Shown here piece after piece: positions 32,914-61,207 of a stretch of DNA of 64,000 bases. The notes below the pieces were generated by a model. That model did no database searches and was not told the origin of the DNA. It saw only the letters and a list, made by a program, of their open reading frames with translations. The number at the start of each line of letters is the position of its first letter. Within the stretch, counting starts at the first letter, position 1. Location: positions 62,001 through 126,000 of IMG/VR virus record IMGVR_UViG_3300027668_000008; one strand, given 5' to 3'. Origin of the DNA: a virus. Made by a program: the position numbers and the translations under genes.

Positions 32914-34152
32914 TTAAAAGTAACGTTGTATTCCACCTTCTCTGACTGTATCTAGTGTTAAGCAGTGTAAACCGCCGTCCCAGAAGTTTCTGTGTCTAAA
33001 ACGACAGTAGATTGGTTCTATATTGTGTTGTTTTAACTTGTCATGTACTTGTTTTTGATAATTCATTGATAATATAGTGTTTTGATTAACACTTAACATA
33101 TTAACTTCAAATTGTGTTTCTTCTGAATATCCAGTCCAAGTACTTAACCATTGTTCAATAAAACTTGTATATCCTGGATTATCTTTAGCATCGGGCGTCC
33201 ACCATTTTCCATCAGTTATGTGCTTTTGTTGTTGCCAACTGCCATACTCTGAATCCATAGTTTTCTCTTTACCTGTACCAATTTGTAAAACTTCCCAACC
33301 CGGTAATGTTTCTTTAAAATCATCTTTGTTTAAATACGAAGCGGCAATAACAAGACCAGGCTTTGGTAAATTAAACGTTGCATCACTATGTCCGCCATTG
33401 GCAGTATTAGTACGTTTAAACTCTGGATACAATTCCACCATAGCGTCATCTAAATTTTCAACATCTTTTGTGTCGATAATTAAAGTGTCGCCTACTCGTG
33501 TTACTGTTGGTGCCCAGAACCCCCAAGTATAACTCATTGCTTTAATGTATTCAGGATCATTAGTAAATGTACCTTCTGGTATACTTGGATCAAACCATTC
33601 TGCTTTATATGTTGTATCGTATTCAACATAAGACTTTCTAGGTATTAATGGTCCTCTAAATTTTCTTTTCTTTGGATCAACTGTTAATCTCAAATCTAAG
33701 CAATCTGGATTAATAAAGTTTTGCCCACTTGTTGTCATAAACTTATGAAACTCTGGATACTGTTGTGTTAACAATATCTTTTTACCCATTGTTATAAGAT
33801 AATCTCTAGGCATTAATGCAGGTTTAGGAATTCCGTTAAATGCAGACTTCGTATCTTCGTAGTATTCCATAATATTGTCATACCCAACACCATGTGTGCT
33901 AGTGTCTGCCAATGTTGCGGCTTGTGTTAAATTAGGGTGTAAACGAACAACGTCAACTCCAAGGTCTTCTAACGTCTTTTGGATATTGTCTAAATCTTCA
34001 TGTGTTTCGTATAATAGTTTTTGCAGTAAATCTCTTAACTTGTGATCTTTAATGTCTTCAAAAAACTCTGGCTTATACACGTTACCAAGTACTACTTGTT
34101 TTAATGGATCCCATCCATTGTATGCATTTGCTTCGTTAATTCTATATGTCAT
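32914..34152 (-). CDS. amidinotransferase (glycine amidinotransferase-like, 412 aa)
   Basis: Pentein-fold signatures are present: PRD at 115-117, a His-containing GGHSDATF at 253-260 and the nucleophile GGLHCLTLDTVREGG with Cys397. This order matches glycine/inosamine amidinotransferases rather than arginine deiminase. It would move an amidino group from arginine to an amine acceptor, releasing ornithine. The acceptor is unknown. It is adjacent to a GNAT-like protein. Confidence 0.82.
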   Translation of the reverse strand: MTYRINEANAYNGWDPLKQVVLGNVYKPEFFEDIKDHKLRDLLQKLLYETHEDLDNIQKTLEDLGVDVVRLHPNLTQAATLADTSTHGVGYDNIMEYYEDTKSAFNGIPKPALMPRDYLITMGKKILLTQQYPEFHKFMTTSGQNFINPDCLDLRLTVDPKKRKFRGPLIPRKSYVEYDTTYKAEWFDPSIPEGTFTNDPEYIKAMSYTWGFWAPTVTRVGDTLIIDTKDVENLDDAMVELYPEFKRTNTANGGHSDATFNLPKPGLVIAASYLNKDDFKETLPGWEVLQIGTGKEKTMDSEYGSWQQQKHITDGKWWTPDAKDNPGYTSFIEQWLSTWTGYSEETQFEVNMLSVNQNTILSMNYQKQVHDKLKQHNIEPIYCRFRHRNFWDGGLHCLTLDTVREGGIQRYF

Positions 34153-35088: not shown

Positions 35089-35492
35089 AAATCGCCGTCT
35101 TGCCTATTCTCTGAATAGTGAACATCGAATTCACCGCCTGGATAACGTGCTTTAAGTTTGTTTACATTTTCTGCAACTACTTCATTAGGGTCAATACCCA
35201 ATGCCCTGCAACTATTAATCCAATACCAAATAATATCACCAAGTTCTCGTTTAGCATGAAAGATAGTTTCATTATCCAACGGTTTACCTTGAAATATACA
35301 TTTTTTAACAATTTCTGCAAACTCTCCTCCTTCGCTCGCCATTCCAATCGAGCCTGTTAATAGTAATGCCATGTTAACACCACTGTCTTTTTCTAGTTTC
35401 TCTAACTGTGAAGTTAGTCCACCAGTTTCGTTACTTTGTAAAGAAGTTACCTTCTCTACGAATTCTTGATATTTATTTAGGTCTACCTGCAT
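35085..35492 (-). CDS. mazG: MazG-like nucleoside triphosphate pyrophosphohydrolase (135 aa)
   Basis: The MazG metal-binding pattern is present: EGGEFAEIVKK at about residue 52 (ExxE) and KRELGDIIWYW at about residue 80 (ExxD). The length fits a single-domain phage MazG. Known members hydrolyse (d)NTPs or alarmones and may delay host starvation responses. It overlaps prs upstream by 20 bases. Confidence 0.87.
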   Translation of the reverse strand: MQVDLNKYQEFVEKVTSLQSNETGGLTSQLEKLEKDSGVNMALLLTGSIGMASEGGEFAEIVKKCIFQGKPLDNETIFHAKRELGDIIWYWINSCRALGIDPNEVVAENVNKLKARYPGGEFDVHYSENRQDGDL

Positions 35493-36459
35493 TAACTACT
35501 CCGTTTTTTAGTGTGGTATTGAACAATGAAGAAACACTTTCTTCATTTGTTATTCTTCTGATTGCTTCGCCGAACAAAGCACCCGTTGATAATTGAATTG
35601 TTTTCTTACACTCGTCGGGGCAACGCCACTCGATTGAATCTGTAATTACTAAACTGTCTAAACAACTGTTTTCTACTTTTTTACAAGCGTCATGTGTTAA
35701 TACACCGTGTGTTATGTATGCTCTAACAGATAATGCTCCTTGATCCATAATTACTTGTGCGGCATTACATAATGTTCCACCGCTATCAATAATGTCATCT
35801 ACTAATATTGCGTGTTTGCCTTCTACATCTCCTATTAGTCCCATTACTTCGCTTTCGCCTGCTTTGGGTCTACGTTTGTCTACAATAGCAATATCACCAT
35901 TAAACATTTCTGCAAATTTTCTAGCTCGTACTGTACCACCAGCATCCGGTGAAACAAATACAGTTTCAATAAATGTGTTGTCGTACATACCAAGTCTACG
36001 TTTGATATCTTTTGCAAATACAATACGACTTGTTAAGTCATCTACAGGAATATCAAAAAATCCTTGTATCTGTCCTGCGTGTAAGTCCATTGTAAGAACT
36101 CTGTCTGCACCTGATTCTGTAATTAAGTTTGCTACTAGTTTTGCCGTGATAGGAGTACGTGAAGCACTCTTACGGTCTTGTCTGGCATAGCCAAAGTAAG
36201 GAATAACTGCGGTAATACGTTTAGCACTACTACGTTTTGCGGCATCAATCATAACCATTAATTCCATAAGGTTATCATTAACTGGTGAACTTGTAGATTG
36301 GATAATAAAGACGTCTTCTCCTCTGAGATTTTCTAAAAACTCAACACTACATTCGCCGTCAGCGAATTTAGATATTTTAGAGGGAACAATGTTAGTGAAG
36401 CAATGTTCAGCAACTGCGTTAGCGAGTTCCTGATTGCTATTTCCTGCGATGATTTTCAT
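35473..36459 (-). CDS. prs: ribose-phosphate pyrophosphokinase (PRPP synthetase, 328 aa)
   Basis: A full-length enzyme. It has KFADGE near residue 32, FGYARQDRKSASRTP at about 109-123, the metal-binding VLTMDLHAGQIQGFF at about 140-154 and the PRPP loop VDDIIDSGGTL at about 222-232. It makes PRPP from ribose-5-phosphate and ATP. It is in one orientation with MazG and RpiB, so the phage could drive pentose phosphates into nucleotides and NAD. It has its own sigma70 promoter. Confidence 0.95.
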   Translation of the reverse strand: MKIIAGNSNQELANAVAEHCFTNIVPSKISKFADGECSVEFLENLRGEDVFIIQSTSSPVNDNLMELMVMIDAAKRSSAKRITAVIPYFGYARQDRKSASRTPITAKLVANLITESGADRVLTMDLHAGQIQGFFDIPVDDLTSRIVFAKDIKRRLGMYDNTFIETVFVSPDAGGTVRARKFAEMFNGDIAIVDKRRPKAGESEVMGLIGDVEGKHAILVDDIIDSGGTLCNAAQVIMDQGALSVRAYITHGVLTHDACKKVENSCLDSLVITDSIEWRCPDECKKTIQLSTGALFGEAIRRITNEESVSSLFNTTLKNGVVNAGRPK

Positions 36460-36487
36460 TGAAACTCCGTTGGTATATTATATTCTA

Positions 36488-36516
36488 ATTATAATACAAA
36501 CGTAGAGTGAAGTCAA
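36488..36516 (-). promoter_or_regulatory. sigma70-type promoter (TTGACT-17-TATAAT)
   Basis: ACTTGACT, 17 bases and a perfect TATAAT, about 29 bases before prs. A CGGAG ribosome site follows. Confidence 0.68.
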
Positions 36517-36534
36517 GTAAATTCTAAAAAAGAA

Positions 36535-37266
36535 TTACCAAGATAATGCTGTTCTTGTCCAAATTGCAGTACTGCCGTCGTAGTCTGCTATACATACATA
36601 TAGGTAACTGGCATCGTATGCCACCATGCCTGCAGTATGTCCTGCTACGCCAACATTTGTTGCTGGTGTTAATGCAACTACACCTTTTGCAACCTGTGGG
36701 CCACTCAATAATTGAACTGTAATAGTTGAACCATTGTCATCTGAAGAAAAACGTAACAAGTGATTACCTGTTGCACTGAATGTGACTACGTTTGAGGCGT
36801 ATCCTTGTAAAGCGTCTGTTCCATGTGATACAGTCGCTGGTAAAGTTAAAGTATGTGCAACACTTGAGATGTTAATCATAACATCTACTTCGGCATATTT
36901 GCCTGTTGCGGGCCAGTTACTAAAACCTTGTGTTACACTACCACTAGTTGTAAGTGTTTGGTAACCACCGCTTTGATAGTTAACAGTAAAAGTCCCTGTT
37001 ACAGTACCAATTGCGTTTTTAGTTCTAACTGCTCTGTTTAACTCAACGTTATATATAGTGTTTCCACCCATATCATTATCAAGTGATGTACCTGTTAATG
37101 CGGATTTTAAAACTACTTTTGTTTGTAAGTCTTCAATCTCAGTTTTAGCATAACCTAGGTTAGTCTTTACGTTAGTAAAGTTGTCTCTAAATCCTTGTGA
37201 ACTGTTATCCTGTCCTGCGACTGGAAACGTACCGTCTATATTTGTTGTATTAATCGAACTAGCCAT
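36535..37266 (-). CDS. fibre/adhesin-type structural protein (243 aa)
   Basis: Starts MASSINTTNIDGTFPVAG with NSSQGFRDNFTNVKTNL, an N-terminal motif of marine phage fibre-like proteins from memory. A short coiled coil follows and then a Ser/Thr/Gly-rich beta region. The C-terminus (VAYDASYLYVCIADYDGSTA, then IWTRTALSW) matches the C-terminus of the 40647-41345 protein. A late promoter precedes it. Host recognition or decoration is inferred. Confidence 0.68.
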   Translation of the reverse strand: MASSINTTNIDGTFPVAGQDNSSQGFRDNFTNVKTNLGYAKTEIEDLQTKVVLKSALTGTSLDNDMGGNTIYNVELNRAVRTKNAIGTVTGTFTVNYQSGGYQTLTTSGSVTQGFSNWPATGKYAEVDVMINISSVAHTLTLPATVSHGTDALQGYASNVVTFSATGNHLLRFSSDDNGSTITVQLLSGPQVAKGVVALTPATNVGVAGHTAGMVAYDASYLYVCIADYDGSTAIWTRTALSW

Positions 37267-37306
37267 ATTTTTTTAACTCCAGTATTACTTTATGTTGTAA
37301 TATATT

Positions 37307-37314
37307 TATTTATC
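37307..37314 (-). promoter_or_regulatory. T4-late-like promoter (GATAAATA)
   Basis: GATAAATAAATATATT on the minus strand gives two overlapping candidate octamers, followed by a GGAG site before 37266. Confidence 0.52.
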
Positions 37315-37320
37315 ATTTAT

Positions 37321-39639
37321 TTAAGGTAAGTCTATTATCTGAACTCTTGGGAATTTAATATAATGATTACCTTCGGTAATATCTGTGCGTCTTACGTCGA
37401 TATTAGGGAAAAATCTTGTATTTGTACTATCTACACTAGTTGTAGTCGAATCAAACGTTGTTTCTCCACCTACTAACCATGCTGTTGGACTACTAGTTTT
37501 ATCGTAGTTTTTACTAAAGTATTGGTCAACTACATATCTATCTACTGTAAAATCAATCTTGTTTAAGTCAACACCATCGTTAATACTTAGGTAATAAAGA
37601 ATACGTTTACCTGCACCTGGTTTCAAATATGCAATAACACACGCACTAGTGAATCCTAAAATGGTTCCATCATCTTGTACACTAGTCATCCAACGTGGAA
37701 GTGTTCTACTATCCTGGATACCTAGTTTATCTTCAACACGTTTTTTCATACGACTTAAACTTGCTGGATATAAAATTTTGTTATTGTTTGCACTTGCTCT
37801 TAATGTAGAGTTTTCAATGTGTGCAGACTCATCAGCAGTAATAGGGTTATTAATACTTGAGTATTTAATTTCTAAGTTACTAGTTGTTAACGTTGTTCCT
37901 GCTGGAGCGTCGAATTTGTCTAGTACTTCAACATACACAACATCATATATATGATTGTTATCGTTGTCAGTTGCTTTTGCAGTTTTAAAGTCACCAAAAC
38001 GTAAATTTATGTTATGATGGTTTCTATAAACACTTTCAAAGTACTTGCTCAATGTGTTTGCTGGTAGTCCTGGTAAAAACAACATTCTTGGGTATGCTTG
38101 TCTACCAAAGTAAATGTCTCTTGCTCTGTATAAATCTTCGTCTGGGATATCCTGTCTATTATAGATAACATTTTCCCATATGTTTCTATCAGTTTGTGTA
38201 GGCAATAAGTCGATATATAAGTCTTCATAAGGAGCACTATACTCGTTCTTAACTACAACACTAAATGTTCTAGTATTGTACAATGTACCTGTATTATCTC
38301 TTGCCTTAATTGTAAAATTATATGTTCCATCAACTGTAGTTGTTGCTGAACTAGTTACCACATCTAATTTTGTTGTTCCTGAGTCCATTTGGAATGTTTT
38401 AAAACTTGCTCTGCCTTCTAATTCTCCAGTGGAGTTTAGTAGTAGTCCTTGTGGCAGTTTACTACCTGCTTGTAGTTCGTATATAAGTTTTGTATTGTTC
38501 TTACTACTTGCATTTACATACAATGTACTAACTGCACCGGCTTGTAATATGCCTAAATTTTTAACAGTATTCCAAGTAATATCTAAATCTTTATTAGTTA
38601 TTAATTGCATTGTAAACGTATGTGTATCACTAAAGTTAGCCGCATCGCTTGTTCTTGCCGCTTTAACTGTAAATGAATAATCTTGTATAACTTTGTTTAA
38701 GTATGGAAGTTTACCATGTATCCAACCTGTTCCAGAATCAATAGTTAATCCCGATGGTGTTGCTCCACTTTCAATACTGTATGTAATATCGGCGCCACTG
38801 TAGTCAATAGCATCTACTTTAAAACTAAACATATTGTCGTGCAAGAATGTTCCAATTTTAGTTGCACTGTGTCTAATAATTGGACCATATGCACTACTTG
38901 TATCTGATTGGATTAAGTTGTCATCTTTATCAGCAGTAATTGTGTTACTATCTGCTTTTAAATCAAATGCACCATATACATATATACTAAATTCCTTAAC
39001 GATAAATGCTTTACCGTCACTTGCTCTAACAACAAAGTGATGTCTTTTACTGTAACTACCAACACCTGTACCAAAGTCGAATATAACTGTATCAAATGCT
39101 GAAGTATCAAAACTTCCTGCTTCACTTGATCCGTCTACTAACTGTGGTTGAATAAATCCGTTAACATAACCATCGGTTGTCAACTTTGTTCCAACAGGCA
39201 ATGTACCACTTAACAATTCGTATGTTAGTGTATCTTCACTATCGCTGTCATTTACTATAATCTTTTTATTAATATACTGGAAATCTATAAAGTCACCTAA
39301 ATCTGATGCACTTTCCCATACTGGAACGTCTTGTCCTGTAACGATTAATTGGAATGTTTTGTCGTTAACAATACCGGTTGAATCTTTTGCTCTAATAGTG
39401 AACTTGCTGGCAACATCTCTGCTTACTTCCACAGGTACGCCTTGGATAACCTTTCTAGGGTTACCAAATAATGTACCATTACTTGCTAGTTCGATACCGT
39501 CAGGTAATGTTCCAGAAACAACTGAATACGCAATAACACCCGAAGACGGGTCTCTTGCGTCTAAAGAGAATCTGTAGAATTGACCTTCTTGTATTACGCC
39601 TAGGTTACTTGTGGTTGTGTACCAAACTGGTGCCGCCAT
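37321..39639 (-). CDS. tail-fibre/baseplate-type protein with putative Ig-like repeats (772 aa)
   Basis: At least four repeats of about 110-120 residues share a pattern: an LG(V/D/T/I)-type start, a Y-S/E-(V/L)-x-S-G-T-LP-x-G core and a G-x-(L/I)-x-G end. Examples are YSVVSGTLPDGIEL, YELLSGTLPVGTKL, YSIESGATPSGLTI and YELQAGSKLPQGLLL. This is the He_PIG/cadherin-like Ig family. The C-terminal 300 residues are unique (RDIYFGRQAYPRMLFLPGLP). A perfect late promoter precedes it. It is probably a long fibre or baseplate spike. Confidence 0.72.
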   Translation of the reverse strand: MAAPVWYTTTSNLGVIQEGQFYRFSLDARDPSSGVIAYSVVSGTLPDGIELASNGTLFGNPRKVIQGVPVEVSRDVASKFTIRAKDSTGIVNDKTFQLIVTGQDVPVWESASDLGDFIDFQYINKKIIVNDSDSEDTLTYELLSGTLPVGTKLTTDGYVNGFIQPQLVDGSSEAGSFDTSAFDTVIFDFGTGVGSYSKRHHFVVRASDGKAFIVKEFSIYVYGAFDLKADSNTITADKDDNLIQSDTSSAYGPIIRHSATKIGTFLHDNMFSFKVDAIDYSGADITYSIESGATPSGLTIDSGTGWIHGKLPYLNKVIQDYSFTVKAARTSDAANFSDTHTFTMQLITNKDLDITWNTVKNLGILQAGAVSTLYVNASSKNNTKLIYELQAGSKLPQGLLLNSTGELEGRASFKTFQMDSGTTKLDVVTSSATTTVDGTYNFTIKARDNTGTLYNTRTFSVVVKNEYSAPYEDLYIDLLPTQTDRNIWENVIYNRQDIPDEDLYRARDIYFGRQAYPRMLFLPGLPANTLSKYFESVYRNHHNINLRFGDFKTAKATDNDNNHIYDVVYVEVLDKFDAPAGTTLTTSNLEIKYSSINNPITADESAHIENSTLRASANNNKILYPASLSRMKKRVEDKLGIQDSRTLPRWMTSVQDDGTILGFTSACVIAYLKPGAGKRILYYLSINDGVDLNKIDFTVDRYVVDQYFSKNYDKTSSPTAWLVGGETTFDSTTTSVDSTNTRFFPNIDVRRTDITEGNHYIKFPRVQIIDLP

Positions 39640-44063: not shown

Positions 44064-44291
44064 TTATCCTTCTTTATGCCTAAAGATTATTCGTCCTTTG
44101 TTCATATCATAGACGCTTATCTCTAGGTCTACTTTATCCTGTAGCAAAACTTTAATGTTATTTTTTCGCATCTTTCCATTTAGGTGAGCGACTACGGATG
44201 TATCGTGTCCTTCGACTTTGACTTTGAATTGTGCATTTGGTAGTACTTGTGTCACTACGCCCTGCACGTTAATGGTGCCGTCTTTTGCCAT
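44064..44291 (-). CDS. infA: translation initiation factor IF-1 (75 aa)
   Basis: The whole protein aligns by eye with bacterial IF-1: INVQGVVTQVLPNAQFKVKV, then VVAHLNGKMRKNNIKVLLQD, then YDMNKGRIIFRHKEG. Cellular IF-1 has VTAHISGKMRKNYIRIL and Y-D-L-S-KGRI at the same places. The length is right. It would bind the ribosomal A site during initiation. It is in line with the Fe-S genes. It may be acquired from the host, and has probably diverged. Confidence 0.92.
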   Translation of the reverse strand: MAKDGTINVQGVVTQVLPNAQFKVKVEGHDTSVVAHLNGKMRKNNIKVLLQDKVDLEISVYDMNKGRIIFRHKEG

Positions 44292-44742: not shown

Positions 44743-45756
44743 TTATCTTGTCCTATTCATTACTTTAGTTTTATTGATACAAAACTTATTACACACTACA
44801 GACTCTCTATTGTCTATAATGCTGGATAGTCTTTTATTATACCACGAATTGGATAGAATGTCAAGTAGTTTGTTTTCATATATGTTGTTAACCTGTGGAT
44901 CAAATCCAGGCATATCGAACGGTTCTGCTTTGGCTTGTGGTGCTCTAGTGGCTGTCCAACAACAAGGCCAAACTGTTCCCCATGGATCTATTTGTATTCT
45001 CATGTCTTGATACCATATACACGGAGTATCTAGTTCTGCTTGTTCCGGTATATATGTTGTTTTATACTTGTCTTCTTTAAGTATTATGCTCTTACGTTTA
45101 AAGTTTTTAACTTTATCGTGTGATATTTTATAACTCTTATCATACACTTCTAATGTCTCATTCTTAGCAAAACTAGGTCGAATCCAGTGGCTACAACACC
45201 CCAAATCCGTCGCTAGTTGGGTAATAGCGTCTAACTGCTCCACATTGTAGTCGAAAGCAGTAGTAACAATTTCGGCATTTCCGCCTACATCATTAAATGC
45301 TTTAACGTTTTCACATATCTTTTTGAAACTTGTATTACGTCTATATAAATGGTGAGTATCTTCTAATCCATCTATTGCAAACTCAATCTTATGTGATTTA
45401 GCACGTTGTAATACTTTAGATAGTTTTTCCCACCATTTAGTATCACGCATACTTCCGTTTGTAGCAATGCCAATAGATGCTTCTGGGTGGTGTGTTACAA
45501 TGCTTTCACAAATGGCAATAAGTTCAGGGTGCATACACGCATCTCCCCAAACTCCATTAAAATGAATTTTTTTGAATAGTGATCCTTTTGTATCTTTGGA
45601 CATAACTCTGTCCCATACTTTTGGATCTATATGGTTAAGTTGTAAATGAGGTATTGTGTCTCCGCCGTCTATGTTTCTTACACAACTGACACACTTTGCG
45701 TTACAATAACTAGTAGGGTCTACTTGAATGAATTGTACACGTTTTGACCATTGCAT
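44743..45756 (-). CDS. radical SAM enzyme with SPASM-like C-terminus (337 aa)
   Basis: The [4Fe-4S] motif is SYCNAKCVSC with Cys18, Cys22 and Cys25. VWGDACMHPE and IGIATNGSM follow, as in the SAM-binding core. The C-terminus has CIWYQDMRIQIDPWGTVWPC with further Cys, as in SPASM domains that hold auxiliary clusters. SPASM enzymes often modify peptides or proteins. It is directly upstream of the IF-1/ferredoxin/SufT/IscA genes, which could supply its electrons and clusters. Confidence 0.87.
   Translation of the reverse strand: MQWSKRVQFIQVDPTSYCNAKCVSCVRNIDGGDTIPHLQLNHIDPKVWDRVMSKDTKGSLFKKIHFNGVWGDACMHPELIAICESIVTHHPEASIGIATNGSMRDTKWWEKLSKVLQRAKSHKIEFAIDGLEDTHHLYRRNTSFKKICENVKAFNDVGGNAEIVTTAFDYNVEQLDAITQLATDLGCCSHWIRPSFAKNETLEVYDKSYKISHDKVKNFKRKSIILKEDKYKTTYIPEQAELDTPCIWYQDMRIQIDPWGTVWPCCWTATRAPQAKAEPFDMPGFDPQVNNIYENKLLDILSNSWYNKRLSSIIDNRESVVCNKFCINKTKVMNRTR
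44836..44864 (-). promoter_or_regulatory. sigma70-type promoter inside the radical SAM gene (TTGACA-17-TATAAT)
   Basis: A perfect -35 and -10 with ideal spacing lies within the last 40 codons of the radical SAM gene, about 95 bases before the next start. It would give separate early expression of the IF-1/Fe-S genes. Confidence 0.62.
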
Positions 45757-46543: not shown

Positions 46544-46617
46544 TGGCTGGGATACAAGGATTCGAACCTCGATTGACTGGATCAAAACCAGTTGTCCTAC
46601 CATTAGACGATATCCCA
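46544..46617 (-). tRNA. tRNA-Gln (anticodon UUG)
   Basis: A 74-base cloverleaf including encoded CCA. The acceptor is TGGGATA/TATCCCA and the anticodon loop is TTTTGAT. The T-arm contains GGTTCGAATCC. It decodes CAA, common in this AT-rich genome. Confidence 0.93.
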
Positions 46618-46638
46618 ACGTTTTTGTTAATTTCTGGG

Positions 46639-46724
46639 TGGTGCGAATGGAGGGACTCGAACCCACACACCTTAAAGATAACGGATTTTAAGTCCGTTGC
46701 GTCTACCTATTCCGCCACACTCGC
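46639..46724 (-). tRNA. tRNA-Leu (anticodon UAA)
   Basis: An 86-base class II tRNA with a long variable arm and encoded CCA. The acceptor is GCGAGTG with one G-U pair. The anticodon loop is CTTAAAA. It decodes TTA. Confidence 0.93.
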
Positions 46725-46726
46725 TT

Positions 46727-46906
46727 TTACTCACCCAAATTCGCTTTTCTTTTTAAGTCGTTTACTCTATCAACTAACCAACCAATAGCAGTATGTATAT
46801 GTCCAGTATCATGTTCTCTTATACAACTCTTGGCATATTTTATTTCTTCGTTTAGTATGCGAATCTTTGTTGTTGTATCAAAGATGTTTTCTTTTTCTTT
46901 CTTCAT
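46727..46906 (-). CDS. small protein between tRNA genes (59 aa)
   Basis: I start at ATG 46904-46906 (MKKEKENIF) behind GGGGAAATT. The longer open frame runs into tRNA-Trp and cannot be real. The protein is helical and charged, with a Cys-x-x-x-His and HTAIGWLVDRV at the end. No family is recognised. Confidence 0.5.
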   Translation of the reverse strand: MKKEKENIFDTTTKIRILNEEIKYAKSCIREHDTGHIHTAIGWLVDRVNDLKRKANLGE

Positions 46907-46920
46907 AATTTCCCCAACGT

Positions 46921-46995
46921 TGGCATAGGTGTACGGATTCGAACCGCAAATTTTGGATTTGGAATCCAACGTGTTACCGTTAACACCACACCCAT
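46921..46995 (-). tRNA. tRNA-Trp (anticodon CCA)
   Basis: A 75-base cloverleaf with encoded CCA. The acceptor is ATGGGTG/CACCTAT with one G-U pair, and the discriminator is G as usual for tRNA-Trp. The anticodon loop is TTCCAAA. The promoter at 47017-47045 probably drives the cluster. Confidence 0.88.
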
Positions 46996-47052: not shown

Positions 47053-47688
47053 TTACTCTAAAGGTAAAATAAAATTACCTTTTTTGTGTTTTTCTATTAA
47101 GTCATTGTATGTTTCTCCGTTTGTTCGAAAACGTAAAACAACTCTGTAACCTTTCATCTCCTCAACACTGTGAATAACTTTACCTGTTACAAGTGTTGGG
47201 TGTTCTGTACTGTAGTAAACTTTATAAATTTCTTTGCCAGGGTTACGAAAGTCGTCACCTTCTGAAAATGTTAAAGGTTCACCGCCATCATCTGGAATAA
47301 TTGGTAACATAATACTTACTTCTACTTCTTGATCAATATGAGGTACAAACGAAAAGCCTGGTTCATATGCTAATATTTGTACATCAGTAACTCCTAATGG
47401 AACCTTAAAGTTAAACTGTTTAATAAACTTTTGTATAACAGGATAATCTATTAACTCTTTACCTTCGAAGTTAGGAGCATACACTTGCCTAAACTTGTCT
47501 GTAAGTGTTTTACGATACGGATTATCTTTGTTGTACTTCTTTTTGAATTCGTTCCACGGTAAGTGACAACTGTCGTCGAACTGTTTGTAGAATTTTATTA
47601 ATTCTTGTTTATCCCACACAACACCTTCCAACACACAATGGTGTTCTGCTTCTGATGTGCCTTTGTATACTATACTGTCCATTCCCAA
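47053..47688 (-). CDS. 2OG-Fe(II) oxygenase (211 aa)
   Basis: The H-x-D motif is in FSFVPHIDQEVEVSIMLPI at about residue 118. The distal part is HPTLVTGKVIHSVEEMKGY followed by RVVLRF, giving His and Arg. The C-terminal GETYNDLIEK with KKGNF matches the end of the 60575-61207 protein, so the two are paralogues. It is last in a five-gene late operon and overlaps the methyltransferase by 19 bases. Substrate is unknown. Confidence 0.72.
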   Translation of the reverse strand: MGMDSIVYKGTSEAEHHCVLEGVVWDKQELIKFYKQFDDSCHLPWNEFKKKYNKDNPYRKTLTDKFRQVYAPNFEGKELIDYPVIQKFIKQFNFKVPLGVTDVQILAYEPGFSFVPHIDQEVEVSIMLPIIPDDGGEPLTFSEGDDFRNPGKEIYKVYYSTEHPTLVTGKVIHSVEEMKGYRVVLRFRTNGETYNDLIEKHKKGNFILPLE

Positions 47689-48215
47689 TAAAGCCTTTCC
47701 TGTCCTCTGTTACCAACTGTGTCTTCTCTAGTTTCCCAGATGGTTTTATATATAGTTCTAGGTCCATCTACGAATGTAAAATTAAACTCTTTAGCAAATT
47801 GTTTTACTTTTTCAACATTCCATGGATAATATAACCTATGTGTATGTTCGCACATAACTCTAAAGAATATATGACCACCAGGTTTAGTTACACGTTTTAC
47901 TTGTGCTAACTGTTTTCTAATTAAGTCTTCTTTACCAAAATTAATACTTCCTAGTGCAAGACAAACATCAACACTGTTATCTGCAAACGTTAAGTTTTCT
48001 ATTTCTATAATTATGTCTGCTTCTGGTGTTGCTATGTCTATACCAATTAAATTGTCTATTCTTGTTTTGTATAAATTTGCACCACAGCCTAAGTCTAATA
48101 CTTTTGAAGGCTTTAATGAGTTTACTTTTTCGATTAAAGGTTCAGCACAATCGGGCCATCTGTACAAGTCTGTACTACCTTCTTTAAATATTGATGTTAC
48201 TGTATCTTGCATCAT
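47670..48215 (-). CDS. class I SAM-dependent methyltransferase (181 aa)
   Basis: Motif I is KVLDLGCGANLY at about residues 39-50, followed by LIGIDIATPEADI. Motif IV-like ADNSVDVCLALGSIN and a post-motif VTKPGGHIFFRVM complete the class I fold. There is no target-recognition domain, so a small molecule, protein or peptide substrate is more likely than sequence-specific DNA. It overlaps genes on both sides. Confidence 0.82.
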   Translation of the reverse strand: MMQDTVTSIFKEGSTDLYRWPDCAEPLIEKVNSLKPSKVLDLGCGANLYKTRIDNLIGIDIATPEADIIIEIENLTFADNSVDVCLALGSINFGKEDLIRKQLAQVKRVTKPGGHIFFRVMCEHTHRLYYPWNVEKVKQFAKEFNFTFVDGPRTIYKTIWETREDTVGNRGQERLYWEWTV

Positions 48216-48987
48216 TTAAAAATTCTCTAGTTTTATCTGTTACTATGCCTGTTATATTTAACACGGGTCTTGGGCTGTGTCCGTAATTACAAGTTCCATG
48301 TGGAACATCTCTCCAGGGCCATGTAATACAATCACCACGTTTCCACTTTATTAATAGATTACCTAATTGAAATATCTGTCCTTGTCGTTGATCATCTAAA
48401 AATATCATTGTTCTCATTACTTTGCGTTGATCCAAGTCTCCCTTATCAGCATTATCATATTCTTGTCTGGATTTTTTAAGTACTCCACCAAAGTTATCTA
48501 AATGCCAATAAAAACATTGTCCAGGCTTTTGTACATCAAACTTTACTACACCCGGCTTTTCAAAACCAAATGCATCTACAATGTATTGTAAACTATCTTT
48601 TAATTTAGGGTGTAATGTTCTGTTAGCAATAGTGTATCCACCATCTATATCATAACCCCATTTTTTAAAGTCGTTTTCTTCCCAGTCGTTTGTCGTGTCT
48701 TTTCTTGTTTGTTTACGAAACTTAAAGTCTGCTGGTTTTGTTTCTGCACTTAATTCTGCAACTGCTTGATCCCAGTCACCACTAAAGTTTCCAACAGGTA
48801 TTACTGGTGGGCAATCGCCATCTAATTCTGCAATATCATCTCTCGATTCATCGAAATGATATCTACTTGTTGCTTTACAAAAATCGTATAAACTATTATA
48901 ACCATCTTTACTTACAGGTGGTTGTGTTTTTAGTTTTTCCCACATCGACAATGGGTCTCTACTAAATTCTAAATCATAAAATTGCAT
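48184..48987 (-). CDS. 2OG-Fe(II) oxygenase (267 aa)
   Basis: I start at ATG 48985-48987, which overlaps the upstream stop (TAATG) behind TTGGAG. The H-x-D is in GQCFYWHLDNFGG, and DVPHGTCNYGHSPRPVLNI supplies the distal His and Arg. VMRTMIFLDDQRQGQIFQLG between them is the jelly-roll core. It has little similarity to the other oxygenases here, so a distinct substrate is likely. Confidence 0.72.
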   Translation of the reverse strand: MQFYDLEFSRDPLSMWEKLKTQPPVSKDGYNSLYDFCKATSRYHFDESRDDIAELDGDCPPVIPVGNFSGDWDQAVAELSAETKPADFKFRKQTRKDTTNDWEENDFKKWGYDIDGGYTIANRTLHPKLKDSLQYIVDAFGFEKPGVVKFDVQKPGQCFYWHLDNFGGVLKKSRQEYDNADKGDLDQRKVMRTMIFLDDQRQGQIFQLGNLLIKWKRGDCITWPWRDVPHGTCNYGHSPRPVLNITGIVTDKTREFLNDARYSNINI

Positions 48988-49574
48988 TAATATTCTCCAA
49001 AGGCCCAATGCCTTTCTTTACACCACCAACATTCTTTGCATGGTCTCGGTGGCTGTGTTGCTTCGCAACTTATAGTTAACGGAAAAAGTGTTTCAAGTAA
49101 GTTGTACTCTTTGTAACGTTTAGCAATGTCTTTTTTATCTAAGTCTGCTAAAGGTCTATACATAGTTAAACCGTTTTTAGTTGTAACTACTTTTTCTAGT
49201 TTTTGATTGCGTGTTTCGTCTGATCCTTCTCCAAGATACTCGGAAGGGTTTCGAGTAAAGCCGTTTATGTAACAATCTAAATTGTGGAATTCTGCAAACT
49301 TTTTTCGTAACTTGTCACGTTTTGCTTTTCCTTCGGCTCTATCTTTAAAAGTATATATTGCATATGCTTTAATATTACTTATCTTTAATTCGTTTAGTAT
49401 TTTGTCAACATTGTCTAAATGATATTGCCCATCATCTAATCTTGAACCTACATACAAGTATAATTCACTGTTAGGGTGTGTTTTAGATATTTGATACAAC
49501 ATAAGTGAACTGTCAGCACCTCCGCTAAACAATACACCAATCTTGTTATGTTGTGGTATTACACTCGTTTCCAT
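48987..49574 (-). CDS. PP-loop ATPase, QueC-like (195 aa)
   Basis: The PP-loop is LFSGGADSSLML with SGGADS at 17-22. The C-terminus has four Cys (170, 179, 182, 185) in SCEATQPPRPCKECWWCKER, as in the zinc site of QueC (preQ0 synthase). Family members adenylate a carboxylate or base before amidation or thiolation. QueD, QueE and FolE are not in the window, so true preQ0 synthesis is not shown. It overlaps the 377-residue gene by 16 bases. Confidence 0.75.
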   Translation of the reverse strand: METSVIPQHNKIGVLFSGGADSSLMLYQISKTHPNSELYLYVGSRLDDGQYHLDNVDKILNELKISNIKAYAIYTFKDRAEGKAKRDKLRKKFAEFHNLDCYINGFTRNPSEYLGEGSDETRNQKLEKVVTTKNGLTMYRPLADLDKKDIAKRYKEYNLLETLFPLTISCEATQPPRPCKECWWCKERHWAFGEY

Positions 49575-50692
49575 AATTTTGCTCTTGAATCGCCACCGTC
49601 TTTCAACATTATTGAAGCGGCTTTAGTACTAGTTCCATTAAATGTATGGCAACAATGATCTGACCCATACACTAGTAGTTTAGGATTATATGATTCTAAG
49701 GTTTTCATAAACCGTTTTACATTTGTATAACTTTGTTGGCTAGTTTTGTTAACATTTGCTGGTTGTCTCTTTAATGCACCATTATACCAGAATACACTAA
49801 AGTCATATGCTTCATGTTCGTCTAATATTCGTTTGAGTGCAGTATGATCACCTAAATTACAAACATAAAAATTGTGTTTACACTTCTTATACGTTGTCCA
49901 ATGTGTTATCCATTCATCATGTGTCCATTTTTTGTTCATATGGTCCAATACTTCATGTGTAGGCTTGTGTCCACGTTGAAATTGTTTACCATTAAAGGTA
50001 CTTAATAGTGGAAACTTCTCATATAAATGGTCCAACCAGGATAGATAATCTTCCCCGTCCCAATTAGCAATAGTATACTTTCGAACTGCTATACTGCTTT
50101 TGCTTATATCAATATGGTTAACAATAGTATCTTCAGTAAAGCCACCATCTTCTAAAATATAGTTAATATAGAAGCCGGAGCTCACTGTCATTGCCCATTG
50201 TATAGGTGTAATACGCCCGTACACGGGCTTTGGTATCTCATTATGCACAACATATGCCAGATTTGAGTTCTTTAAAACCATGTCTATTGCACTATCGTGA
50301 GTAGCACTAAAAGTATCTGCATTTGAAGGATCAACTACAGGAAAGTCATAAGATAGTTCAAGTTTTGTATTATTGTGTGTGCCACTTGGATTATAAATTG
50401 TAATATCTGGGCCTATATCATACCAACGAAATTTTCCAATCTGTGGTTCAATCACTCTTTGGAAATACGAATAAGGAAATATAACTCCAGCCGTAACTAC
50501 GATTGTCATATCATAATCTATGAAATGTTCATAGTTTAGATTAGTAGTTTCAAAGAAATGCCAATCAGCATTTTCTTCAAAACGGTCTGCCATACAGTAA
50601 TCAAAATTTAATTTTGTGTAATTGGTGGCGACCTGATAAAACCATGTAGGAAGTTGATCTTCTTTTACATGATTAATGACAAAAGCCTTCAT
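49559..50692 (-). CDS. unknown protein (377 aa), first gene of late operon
   Basis: No family is recognised. It begins MKAFVINHVKEDQLPTWFYQ, which could be the first strand of a glycosyltransferase-like or Rossmann fold. It is rich in Trp, Tyr and His, and contains LVYGSDHCCHTFNG near the end. There is no signal peptide. A late promoter at 50717-50724 and overlap with the QueC-like gene make it the leader of the oxygenase/methyltransferase operon. Confidence 0.55.
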   Translation of the reverse strand: MKAFVINHVKEDQLPTWFYQVATNYTKLNFDYCMADRFEENADWHFFETTNLNYEHFIDYDMTIVVTAGVIFPYSYFQRVIEPQIGKFRWYDIGPDITIYNPSGTHNNTKLELSYDFPVVDPSNADTFSATHDSAIDMVLKNSNLAYVVHNEIPKPVYGRITPIQWAMTVSSGFYINYILEDGGFTEDTIVNHIDISKSSIAVRKYTIANWDGEDYLSWLDHLYEKFPLLSTFNGKQFQRGHKPTHEVLDHMNKKWTHDEWITHWTTYKKCKHNFYVCNLGDHTALKRILDEHEAYDFSVFWYNGALKRQPANVNKTSQQSYTNVKRFMKTLESYNPKLLVYGSDHCCHTFNGTSTKAASIMLKDGGDSRAKLWKRV

Positions 50693-50716: not shown

Positions 50717-50724
50717 TATTTATT
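50717..50724 (-). promoter_or_regulatory. T4-late-like promoter (AATAAATA)
   Basis: GAATAAATACTAATATAAT on the minus strand lies about 25 bases before the 50692 start. Confidence 0.5.
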
Positions 50725-50769
50725 CACCCAAAAAGGCGATGACACAATTAAGTATCACCGCCTACGCAT

Positions 50770-50846
50770 TGGCCTGCCCTAGAGGATTCGAACCTCTGAC
50801 CTAGTGCTTAGAAGGCACTTGCTCTATCCAACTGAGCTAAGGGCAG
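50770..50846 (-). tRNA. tRNA-Arg (anticodon UCU)
   Basis: A 77-base cloverleaf with encoded CCA. The acceptor is CTGCCCT/AGGGCAG, the anticodon loop is CTTCTAA and the T-arm contains GGTTCGAATCC. It decodes AGA. Confidence 0.93.
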
Positions 50847-60574: not shown

Positions 60575-61207
60575 TTATTTTACAAATGTTCCTTGCTTTA
60601 ATTTTCCTACAACAGAGTCATATGTTTCACCTAAACATTTTAGTCTAAGAATTACACGTTCTGAGGTTATCTCTGGAACACCGTGTACTGCCATTCCGTT
60701 AAACATAGTAGGGTGTTCTAGACTATAATGATGTAAGTAATCTATATCATTATCGTCCCAACCGTATTTCTTTTCGTAGTTGATATTTCTTTCTGGTTCA
60801 ATACCTTCTCTACTAAAGAAACTAATAGGAGTAATGTCTTTTACAGGTAATATTGGAAACATAATAGCACAATTCATAAAATGATCAGTATGTGGGTGAA
60901 ACTTGTAACCAACATCATAATGTAGTATATCAATATGGTCTGGATCAGGATATTCGCCCCAATTAAACTTATCTACTAAATCTCTAACAACAGGAAAGTC
61001 TAACAAAGACATATCGTTCTTTTTCCTTATTGCTATTGTATTCATTCCTTGCCGACCTTTAAATTCTCTTTTAGTACCTCTTGCTAGATACTGCATATAA
61101 TCACCAAAGTTTTCTATAAGGTGTCTATGCTCTTCAAATAAATCTTCCAAGGCTTGTCGGTCATAAGTTACTTCATCTATTTCTGTGTGAAACTTGCCTT
61201 GTATCAT
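60575..61207 (-). CDS. 2OG-Fe(II) oxygenase (210 aa)
   Basis: H-x-D is in YKFHPHTDHFMNCAIMFPI at about residue 115. HPTMFNGMAVHGVPEI followed by RVILRL gives the distal His and Arg. The C-terminal GETYDSVVGK with KQGTF matches the 47053-47688 oxygenase, so the two are paralogues. It is adjacent to the ferredoxin reductase. Confidence 0.72.
   Translation of the reverse strand: MIQGKFHTEIDEVTYDRQALEDLFEEHRHLIENFGDYMQYLARGTKREFKGRQGMNTIAIRKKNDMSLLDFPVVRDLVDKFNWGEYPDPDHIDILHYDVGYKFHPHTDHFMNCAIMFPILPVKDITPISFFSREGIEPERNINYEKKYGWDDNDIDYLHHYSLEHPTMFNGMAVHGVPEITSERVILRLKCLGETYDSVVGKLKQGTFVK

Follow-up and report, generated by a model that had tools for sequence, protein, structure and literature searches.

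A late-type five-gene operon of a T4-like jumbo phage that may tailor a glycoconjugate

We analyzed a 64,000-nucleotide stretch of viral DNA (the window), which is positions 62001-126000 of the 306,714-base virus record IMGVR_UViG_3300027668_000008 (G000). Within it, five overlapping minus-strand open reading frames (ORFs), which we call genes A to E, lie in the order A-B-C-D-E at 47053-50692. They form an operon behind a late-type promoter, and their order is kept in relatives. Its leader, gene A, founds an unnamed phage protein family, and a gene fusion links it to gene B, which encodes a QueC-family protein. Our leading explanation, which we hold tentatively, is that the operon is a late-expressed module for tailoring a glycoconjugate (a surface or virion glycan). 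G000 encodes homologs of the T4-type late sigma factor gp55, gp46/47, clamp loader gp44, DNA polymerase gp43, and large terminase, and we therefore regard it as an uncultured T4-like jumbo phage. Operon coordinates are given in window numbering, and those of the deazaguanine genes and sugar cluster in G000 numbering. The relatives (L and G labels) are contigs from IMG/VR.

Structure, promoter, and conservation of the operon

The ORFs as called overlap by 16 (A/B), 22 (B/C), 32 (C/D), and 19 (D/E) bases. Judged from relatives, the start of gene C is most likely the ATG at 48987 (MQFYDLEF), so that the B/C overlap would really be 1 base (ATGA). Upstream of A is the late-type promoter sequence AATAAATA. 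The exact T4 octamer TATAAATA was rejected as the late promoter because it was not enriched in the window (3 found versus 10.6 expected). Therefore, we tested NATAAATA genome-wide. It occurred no more than 70 nucleotides (nt) upstream of 37 of the 311 ORF starts in G000, compared with a mean of 14.7 after shuffling, and the whole of G000 has only 77 copies. The sequence ahead of A, this enrichment, and the gp55 homolog together indicate a promoter of the T4-like late type. Among the NATAAATA-type motifs listed, none precedes B, C, D, or E, and a hairpin and T-run downstream of a tRNA-Arg gene split the operon from the genes upstream. The coordinates, overlaps, and promoter evidence bear out the original prediction (an earlier note on this DNA) of a late-type, translationally coupled tailoring operon.

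The full A-B-C-D-E order was found in four contigs (L017, L018, L019, and L020). The L017 operon is 100% identical and probably comes from the same virus. Identities to the L018-L020 genes are 69-72% for A, 82-85% for B, 94-95% for C, 72-75% for D, and 87-91% for E. Ratios of nonsynonymous to synonymous substitution (dN/dS, NG86) against L018 were 0.21 for A, 0.10 for B, 0.08 for C, 0.26 for D, and 0.07 for E. Therefore, all five genes are under purifying selection. Together with the retained gene order, this confirms that the operon is real and not a chance arrangement. The original prediction had staked itself on such conservation, and the operon is indeed kept as a unit in relatives. Its neighbors in L017-L020 are tRNA and lipoprotein genes, and in L017, L018, and L020 it sits between tRNA-Arg and tRNA-Trp/Leu.

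Predicted functions of the five proteins

Gene B matched the QueC family PF06508 (E value of 1e-10), mostly over the C-terminal zinc region, and it is the only PF06508 match in G000. It resembles canonical QueC in length, in an SGGADS loop (the SGGxDS ATP-binding motif of QueC), and in the zinc motif C(x)8CxxCxxC (C170-x8-C179-xx-C182-xx-C185). However, alignment with nt-1 QueC and 9g Gat-QueC revealed that YxQxHxxE, VPxRN, and YPDC (substrate motifs as defined in PMC13329287) are all absent from B. B also differs in being inside an oxygenase/methyltransferase operon and not next to queD/queE. In E. coli QueC, Y35, R99, Y131, and Y189 are essential, and R99 and Y131 are in motifs missing from B (PMC13329287). 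The Tyr and Asp of the QueC YPDC region contact deazaguanine (PMC13279940). Furthermore, B scored 30.1 bits against the NCBIfam QueC equivalog TIGR00364, below its cutoff of 150.3 bits. We rejected B as a canonical QueC on the missing substrate motifs and this score. Since it lacks the three motifs, B is probably a repurposed QueC-family ligase and not a preQ0 synthase. In a family search, members turned up at 62 viral loci and on two metagenome-assembled genome contigs labelled bacterial, of which 33 loci are non-redundant. In two contigs, a pair of diverged B copies lies side by side in tandem (L174, 7468-8933; L175, 4856-6195).

The 377-residue A protein was said in the original prediction to have no recognized family, and profile searches agreed, with no match in Pfam, PHROG, or NCBIfam. 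Searches found no relatives of A in cultured phages or cellular genomes, and tblastn with the A-B core gave zero matches in 50,697 phage records. Homologs of A are encoded by about 12 distinct viral contigs. Over 11 A sequences, with 34-71% identity to A, about 70 columns are invariant, which is as expected for an enzyme. Sequence comparison with solved structures gave no credible relative of A. A first AlphaFold2 model (7 sequences; predicted local distance difference test [pLDDT] score of 59.7) was too poor and was replaced by an 11-sequence model (pLDDT of 77.6; predicted template modeling [TM] score, pTM, of 0.72). Its best structural matches were uncharacterized phage proteins (E value of 2e-14; TM of 0.49). 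Matches in the PDB were weak, to class I methyltransferases, nicotinamide N-methyltransferases (NNMT) (E value of 5e-4; TM of ~0.3). The N-terminal part gave weak fold matches to PBCV-1 GT, a viral GT-A glycosyltransferase (this match came from the earlier model), and to GT34 and GT2. The GT-A motif DxD was not seen in the strand where it would be expected (residues 62-69, TIVVTAG), and a profile comparison of the C-terminal part with D was negative. The model suggests that A is a Rossmann-type, possibly two-lobed protein, for which a glycosyltransferase- or methyltransferase-like fold is weakly supported.

The strongest evidence for a partnership between A and B comes from relatives. In L155, A is fused to B with no stop between them in one 559-codon (559-amino-acid) ORF, which is also bracketed by tRNA genes. 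A adjoins B in L154. In L157 and L161 the arrangement is A-x-B, and behind it come two genes with HTD...H patterns, which we read as 2-oxoglutarate (2OG) oxygenases from their H-x-D and H motifs. The fusion and the repeated adjacency suggest that A and B act together. Other partial combinations are A-C pairs (L042-L044), an E homolog after A (L148), and a C-D pair that is widespread in many contigs. In L148, L154, L157, and L161, the A homologs are embedded in a set of GNAT-like, AMP-binding, and sulfotransferase-like genes. A conserved set in G000 at 18.9-24.4 kb has a GNAT-like protein (identified by eye), a short AMP-binding enzyme, and several sulfotransferase-like proteins.

Gene D matched PF08241 (E value of 8e-8; 33.3 bits versus a cutoff of 21.2), its motif I is DLGCG, and DxGCG and GSINFG are invariant in its homologs. 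By these features, D is a class I S-adenosylmethionine (SAM) methyltransferase. C had a weak, below-cutoff match to PF05118 (Asp/Arg-hydroxylase-like; E value of 0.01), and E had a weak match to the phage 2OG oxygenase family phrog_61 (E value of 0.03). C has HLD ... H-x9-R and E has an HID ... H-x-x-x-R region, the pattern of an iron triad and a 2OG-binding arginine, and a pattern search found this HxD...H...R type of pattern kept in homologs of both. These motifs support C and E as predicted 2OG-Fe(II) oxygenases. A second E-like oxygenase paralog is at 60575-61207 of the window, with 32% identity to E and the same HxD pattern.

Sugar genes and the proposed glycan tailoring

The genes near B relatives include glycosyltransferases (phrog_1962), a nucleotide-sugar epimerase (phrog_540), and tail-fiber genes. 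A twitch-type radical-SAM gene was no more than 4.5 kb away in 15 of the 33 non-redundant B loci versus 4 of 28 control loci. In G000, a cluster at 290-306 kb encodes UDP-glucose dehydrogenase, a DegT-type aminotransferase, an arginine deiminase (ADI)/amidinotransferase-like protein, and a NodU-type carbamoyltransferase. A C-like 2OG gene sits between its UDP-glucose dehydrogenase and DegT genes, overlapping them. The only match to C in the 50,697 phage records was in a Synechococcus phage S-SCSM2R cluster annotated with glycosyltransferases, an AHBA-type synthase, a radical-SAM maturase, and an inosamine amidinotransferase. These relatives suggest a decorated surface sugar or virion component, not a modified base.

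The twitch/SPASM-type radical-SAM ORFs of G000 number about 16, and most of them form two strings of neighboring genes. They are located at 1-18 kb and 290-305 kb of G000, outside the window, and at 44743-45756 of the window, with NifU- and SufE-like ORFs (identified by eye) alongside the strings. The part of the sugar cluster at 293-298 kb is aminosugar or aminoglycoside-like.

There are precedents for both the enzyme and the setting. N-sugar amidotransferases, among them WbpG of O-antigen clusters, belong to the QueC family (PMC13329287), and lipopolysaccharide (LPS)-type islands adjoin tRNAs in the largest T4-like cyanophages (PMC3037559). WbpG-type enzymes (PF06508 cluster 5) carry out QueC-family ATP-dependent amidation in surface-glycan clusters, and G000 has sugar-acid and aminosugar genes. 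In its genes and its surroundings, the module appears related to the LPS-type islands of P-SSM2, S-SSM7, S-SM2, and S-SCSM2R, with which it shares a large T4-like genome, a tRNA-side location, and 2OG oxygenase, aminosugar, amidinotransferase, and radical-SAM genes. It differs in its A-B core, which the phage records do not match, and in that A-E make up a separate compact operon. We favor glycan tailoring because of the coupling of A-E, the neighbors of B relatives, the C-like gene in the sugar cluster, the WbpG precedent, and the tRNA-side islands.

In the proposed mechanism, B would draw on ATP to activate a sugar acid or similar precursor by adenylating its carboxylate (or amide) group, and would then join the activated acid to ammonia or an amine to give an amide or amidine. 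A would work directly with B, supplying or accepting the building block. C and E would add hydroxyl groups to the product by Fe(II)/2-oxoglutarate chemistry, D would methylate it, and the decorated glycan would end up on the virion (tail) or host surface. Several observations weigh against this proposal. The operon contains no glycosyltransferase of a recognized family, and it is far from the sugar cluster in G000. The GT-A reading of A is weak. B has the QueC-type zinc site and only 195 residues, whereas WbpG-type enzymes have CxxC(x)6CxC, a length of 300-400 residues, and a different YDC arrangement (PMC13329287). Finally, some B relatives are immediately beside a T4-type DNA polymerase gene, with further replication genes nearby, in T4-like contigs (L028, L036, L037, L181, L188, L191, and L194), and glycan tailoring does not explain this replication-gene group.

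Features of the operon and its flanks (window numbering) and deazaguanine genes (G000 numbering)
Feature	Position	Strand	Description
Gene A	49559-50692	-	377 aa; founds unnamed phage protein family
Gene B	48987-49574	-	195 aa; QueC-like N-type ATP pyrophosphatase (putative ligase), PF06508
Gene C	48184-48987 (called ORF 48184-49008)	-	Predicted 2OG-Fe(II) oxygenase, Asp/Arg-hydroxylase type; start taken as conserved ATG at 48987
Gene D	47670-48215	-	Class I SAM methyltransferase by sequence, PF08241
Gene E	47053-47688	-	Second 2OG-Fe(II) oxygenase-like protein
Late-type promoter	50717-50724	-	AATAAATA; 24 nt before A
Terminator-like hairpin and T-run after tRNA-Arg	50730-50762	-	GGCGGTGA ... 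TCATCGCC then TTTTT, read from sequence
tRNA-Arg(TCT), upstream flank	50770-50846	-	Kept in L017, L018, L020
tRNA-Trp, tRNA-Leu, tRNA-Gln, downstream flank	46544-46995	-	Kept in L017, L018; Glu replaces Gln in L020
QueE	G000 36478-37383		42-45% identity to phage QueE proteins
QueD	G000 37389-37838		
YhhQ-type transporter	G000 44981-45589		
FolE	G000 47137-47823		

Elsewhere, the window encodes a homolog of translation initiation factor IF-1 (44064-44291; PF01176; E value of 8e-19) and, identified by eye, an amidinotransferase-like protein (32914-34152) and a phosphoribosyl pyrophosphate synthetase (35473-36459).

Deazaguanine genes and other explanations

The main rival to glycan tailoring is that the operon acts directly on a protein of the virion, which would probably be a tail or receptor-binding protein. 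B would activate and conjugate, C and E would hydroxylate side chains, and D would methylate, all during late assembly. We consider this unlikely, but less so than any of the other alternatives. The late promoter fits it, as does the similarity of C to Asp/Arg hydroxylases, whose substrates are proteins. In the QueC family, Cap9 attaches a base to the N terminus of a protein (PMC11996544, PMC13279940). In L148 and L153, A immediately precedes a gene whose product has a major-tropism-determinant N-terminal domain, and in L198 a B relative is near two tail-fiber genes, but tail genes commonly neighbor other genes in T4-like phages anyway. Also, the relatives as a whole share no conserved substrate protein alongside the operon, and its neighbors in L017-L020 are the tRNA and lipoprotein genes noted above.

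The original prediction linked QueC to deazaguanine chemistry and stated that the other queuosine genes were absent. The latter was incorrect, because genes for FolE, QueD, QueE, and a YhhQ-type transporter are elsewhere in G000. DpdA, which the same prediction had suggested looking for with these enzymes, was not found. Profile searches, and phmmer with 9g DpdA and nt-1 DpdA2, detected no TGT, DpdA, or DpdA2 in G000, and a whole-genome search detected no canonical or second QueC. A homolog of nt-1 nrdC.10 (177205-178230) was rejected as DpdA2 because the gene is not the DpdA2 of PMC6884629. The full phage DNA modification set (FolE, QueD, and QueE with QueC and DpdA or DpdA2) was thus not detected. 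Relatives of 322-343 kb also have QueD and a full or partial QueE without canonical QueC. Some phages carry the pathway without DpdA and possibly boost host queuosine or use a DpdA-independent route (PMC6884629). Since such routes have been reported, deazaguanine DNA modification could still take place here.

FolE, QueD, and QueE would make 7-carboxy-7-deazaguanine, and B, as the sole PF06508 match, could convert it or conjugate it to DNA, tRNA, or protein. B and QueE are found together in G000, G008, G013, G014, and G028, but QueD/QueE are found without B in G023, G024, and G004, and B without QueE in G016, G017, and G020. This suggests that B and the deazaguanine pathway do not strictly co-occur, although many of the records compared are fragments, which limits the test. 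Thus, the link from QueC to deazaguanine is supported by the PF06508 match and weakened by the missing motifs (which include the essential R99 and Y131), by the radical-SAM, glycosyltransferase, and tail-fiber neighbors, and by the failure to track with QueD/QueE. The absence of detectable TGT, DpdA, and DpdA2 also counts against it. QatC has lost the same recognition residues but still works in a QueC-like system (PMC13279940). Overall, we judge deazaguanine conjugation improbable, and less likely than glycan or virion protein modification, yet it would be the most surprising outcome.

A narrower version, which we consider a long shot, is that A and B are a conjugating pair that tags a virion component late in infection with phage-made carboxy-deazaguanine, and that C, D, and E elaborate the tag. 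Like B, Cap9 (type IV CBASS) and QatC (qatABCD) employ a QueC scaffold for something other than making bases and pair it with a dedicated partner protein, and the B-A fusion recalls this partner dependence. QatC has lost YPDC-type residues, as has B, whereas Cap9 keeps the canonical motifs. However, Cap9 and QatC belong to defense loci, whereas B is in a phage-borne late operon with a much larger and enzyme-like partner. A partner of the Cap9/QatC type would be expected to have a flexible N-terminal MGGS/MGTS tail; A starts with MKAF. In Pfam, PHROG, and NCBIfam searches, the operon genes matched no CD-NTase, QatA, QatB, or QatD family.

The operon might instead modify the flanking tRNAs of the phage. 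Known tRNA hypermodifications employ QueC, 2OG oxygenases, and methyltransferases, and tRNA genes bracket the operon in G000, L017, L018, and L020, as well as the A-B fusion in L155. However, in T4-like phages tRNA arrays serve generally as sites where such islands insert (PMC3037559), A has no tRNA gene closer than 10 kb in L148 or L154, and the flanking tRNAs (Arg, Trp, Leu, and Gln/Glu) are not queuosine tRNAs. With the late promoter also a poor fit, this is very unlikely. Least likely of all is that the operon makes a small peptide or antibiotic-like molecule during infection, co-tailored by radical-SAM enzymes. The twitch-type strings in G000 and beside B relatives would be consistent with this, as would the short AMP-binding enzyme and sulfotransferase-like proteins of the nearby conserved set in relatives, but we identified neither a precursor peptide nor a carrier protein and saw no export genes.

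Taken as a whole, the original interpretation is partly supported, and glycan tailoring is the explanation that we favor. Recent work has shown that enzymes of the QueC family are reused far from base synthesis, and B represents a broad viral branch of them (33 non-redundant loci) with a recurrent partner A, oxygenases, and a methyltransferase. The analysis also exposed a group of phages with FolE-QueD-QueE but no detectable QueC. If A and B do tag a virion component with carboxy-deazaguanine, they would be a viral counterpart of the nucleobase-protein conjugation of CBASS. The compact, co-expressible gene set offers a way into the abundant, unexplained 2OG oxygenases and radical-SAM enzymes of large marine phages.

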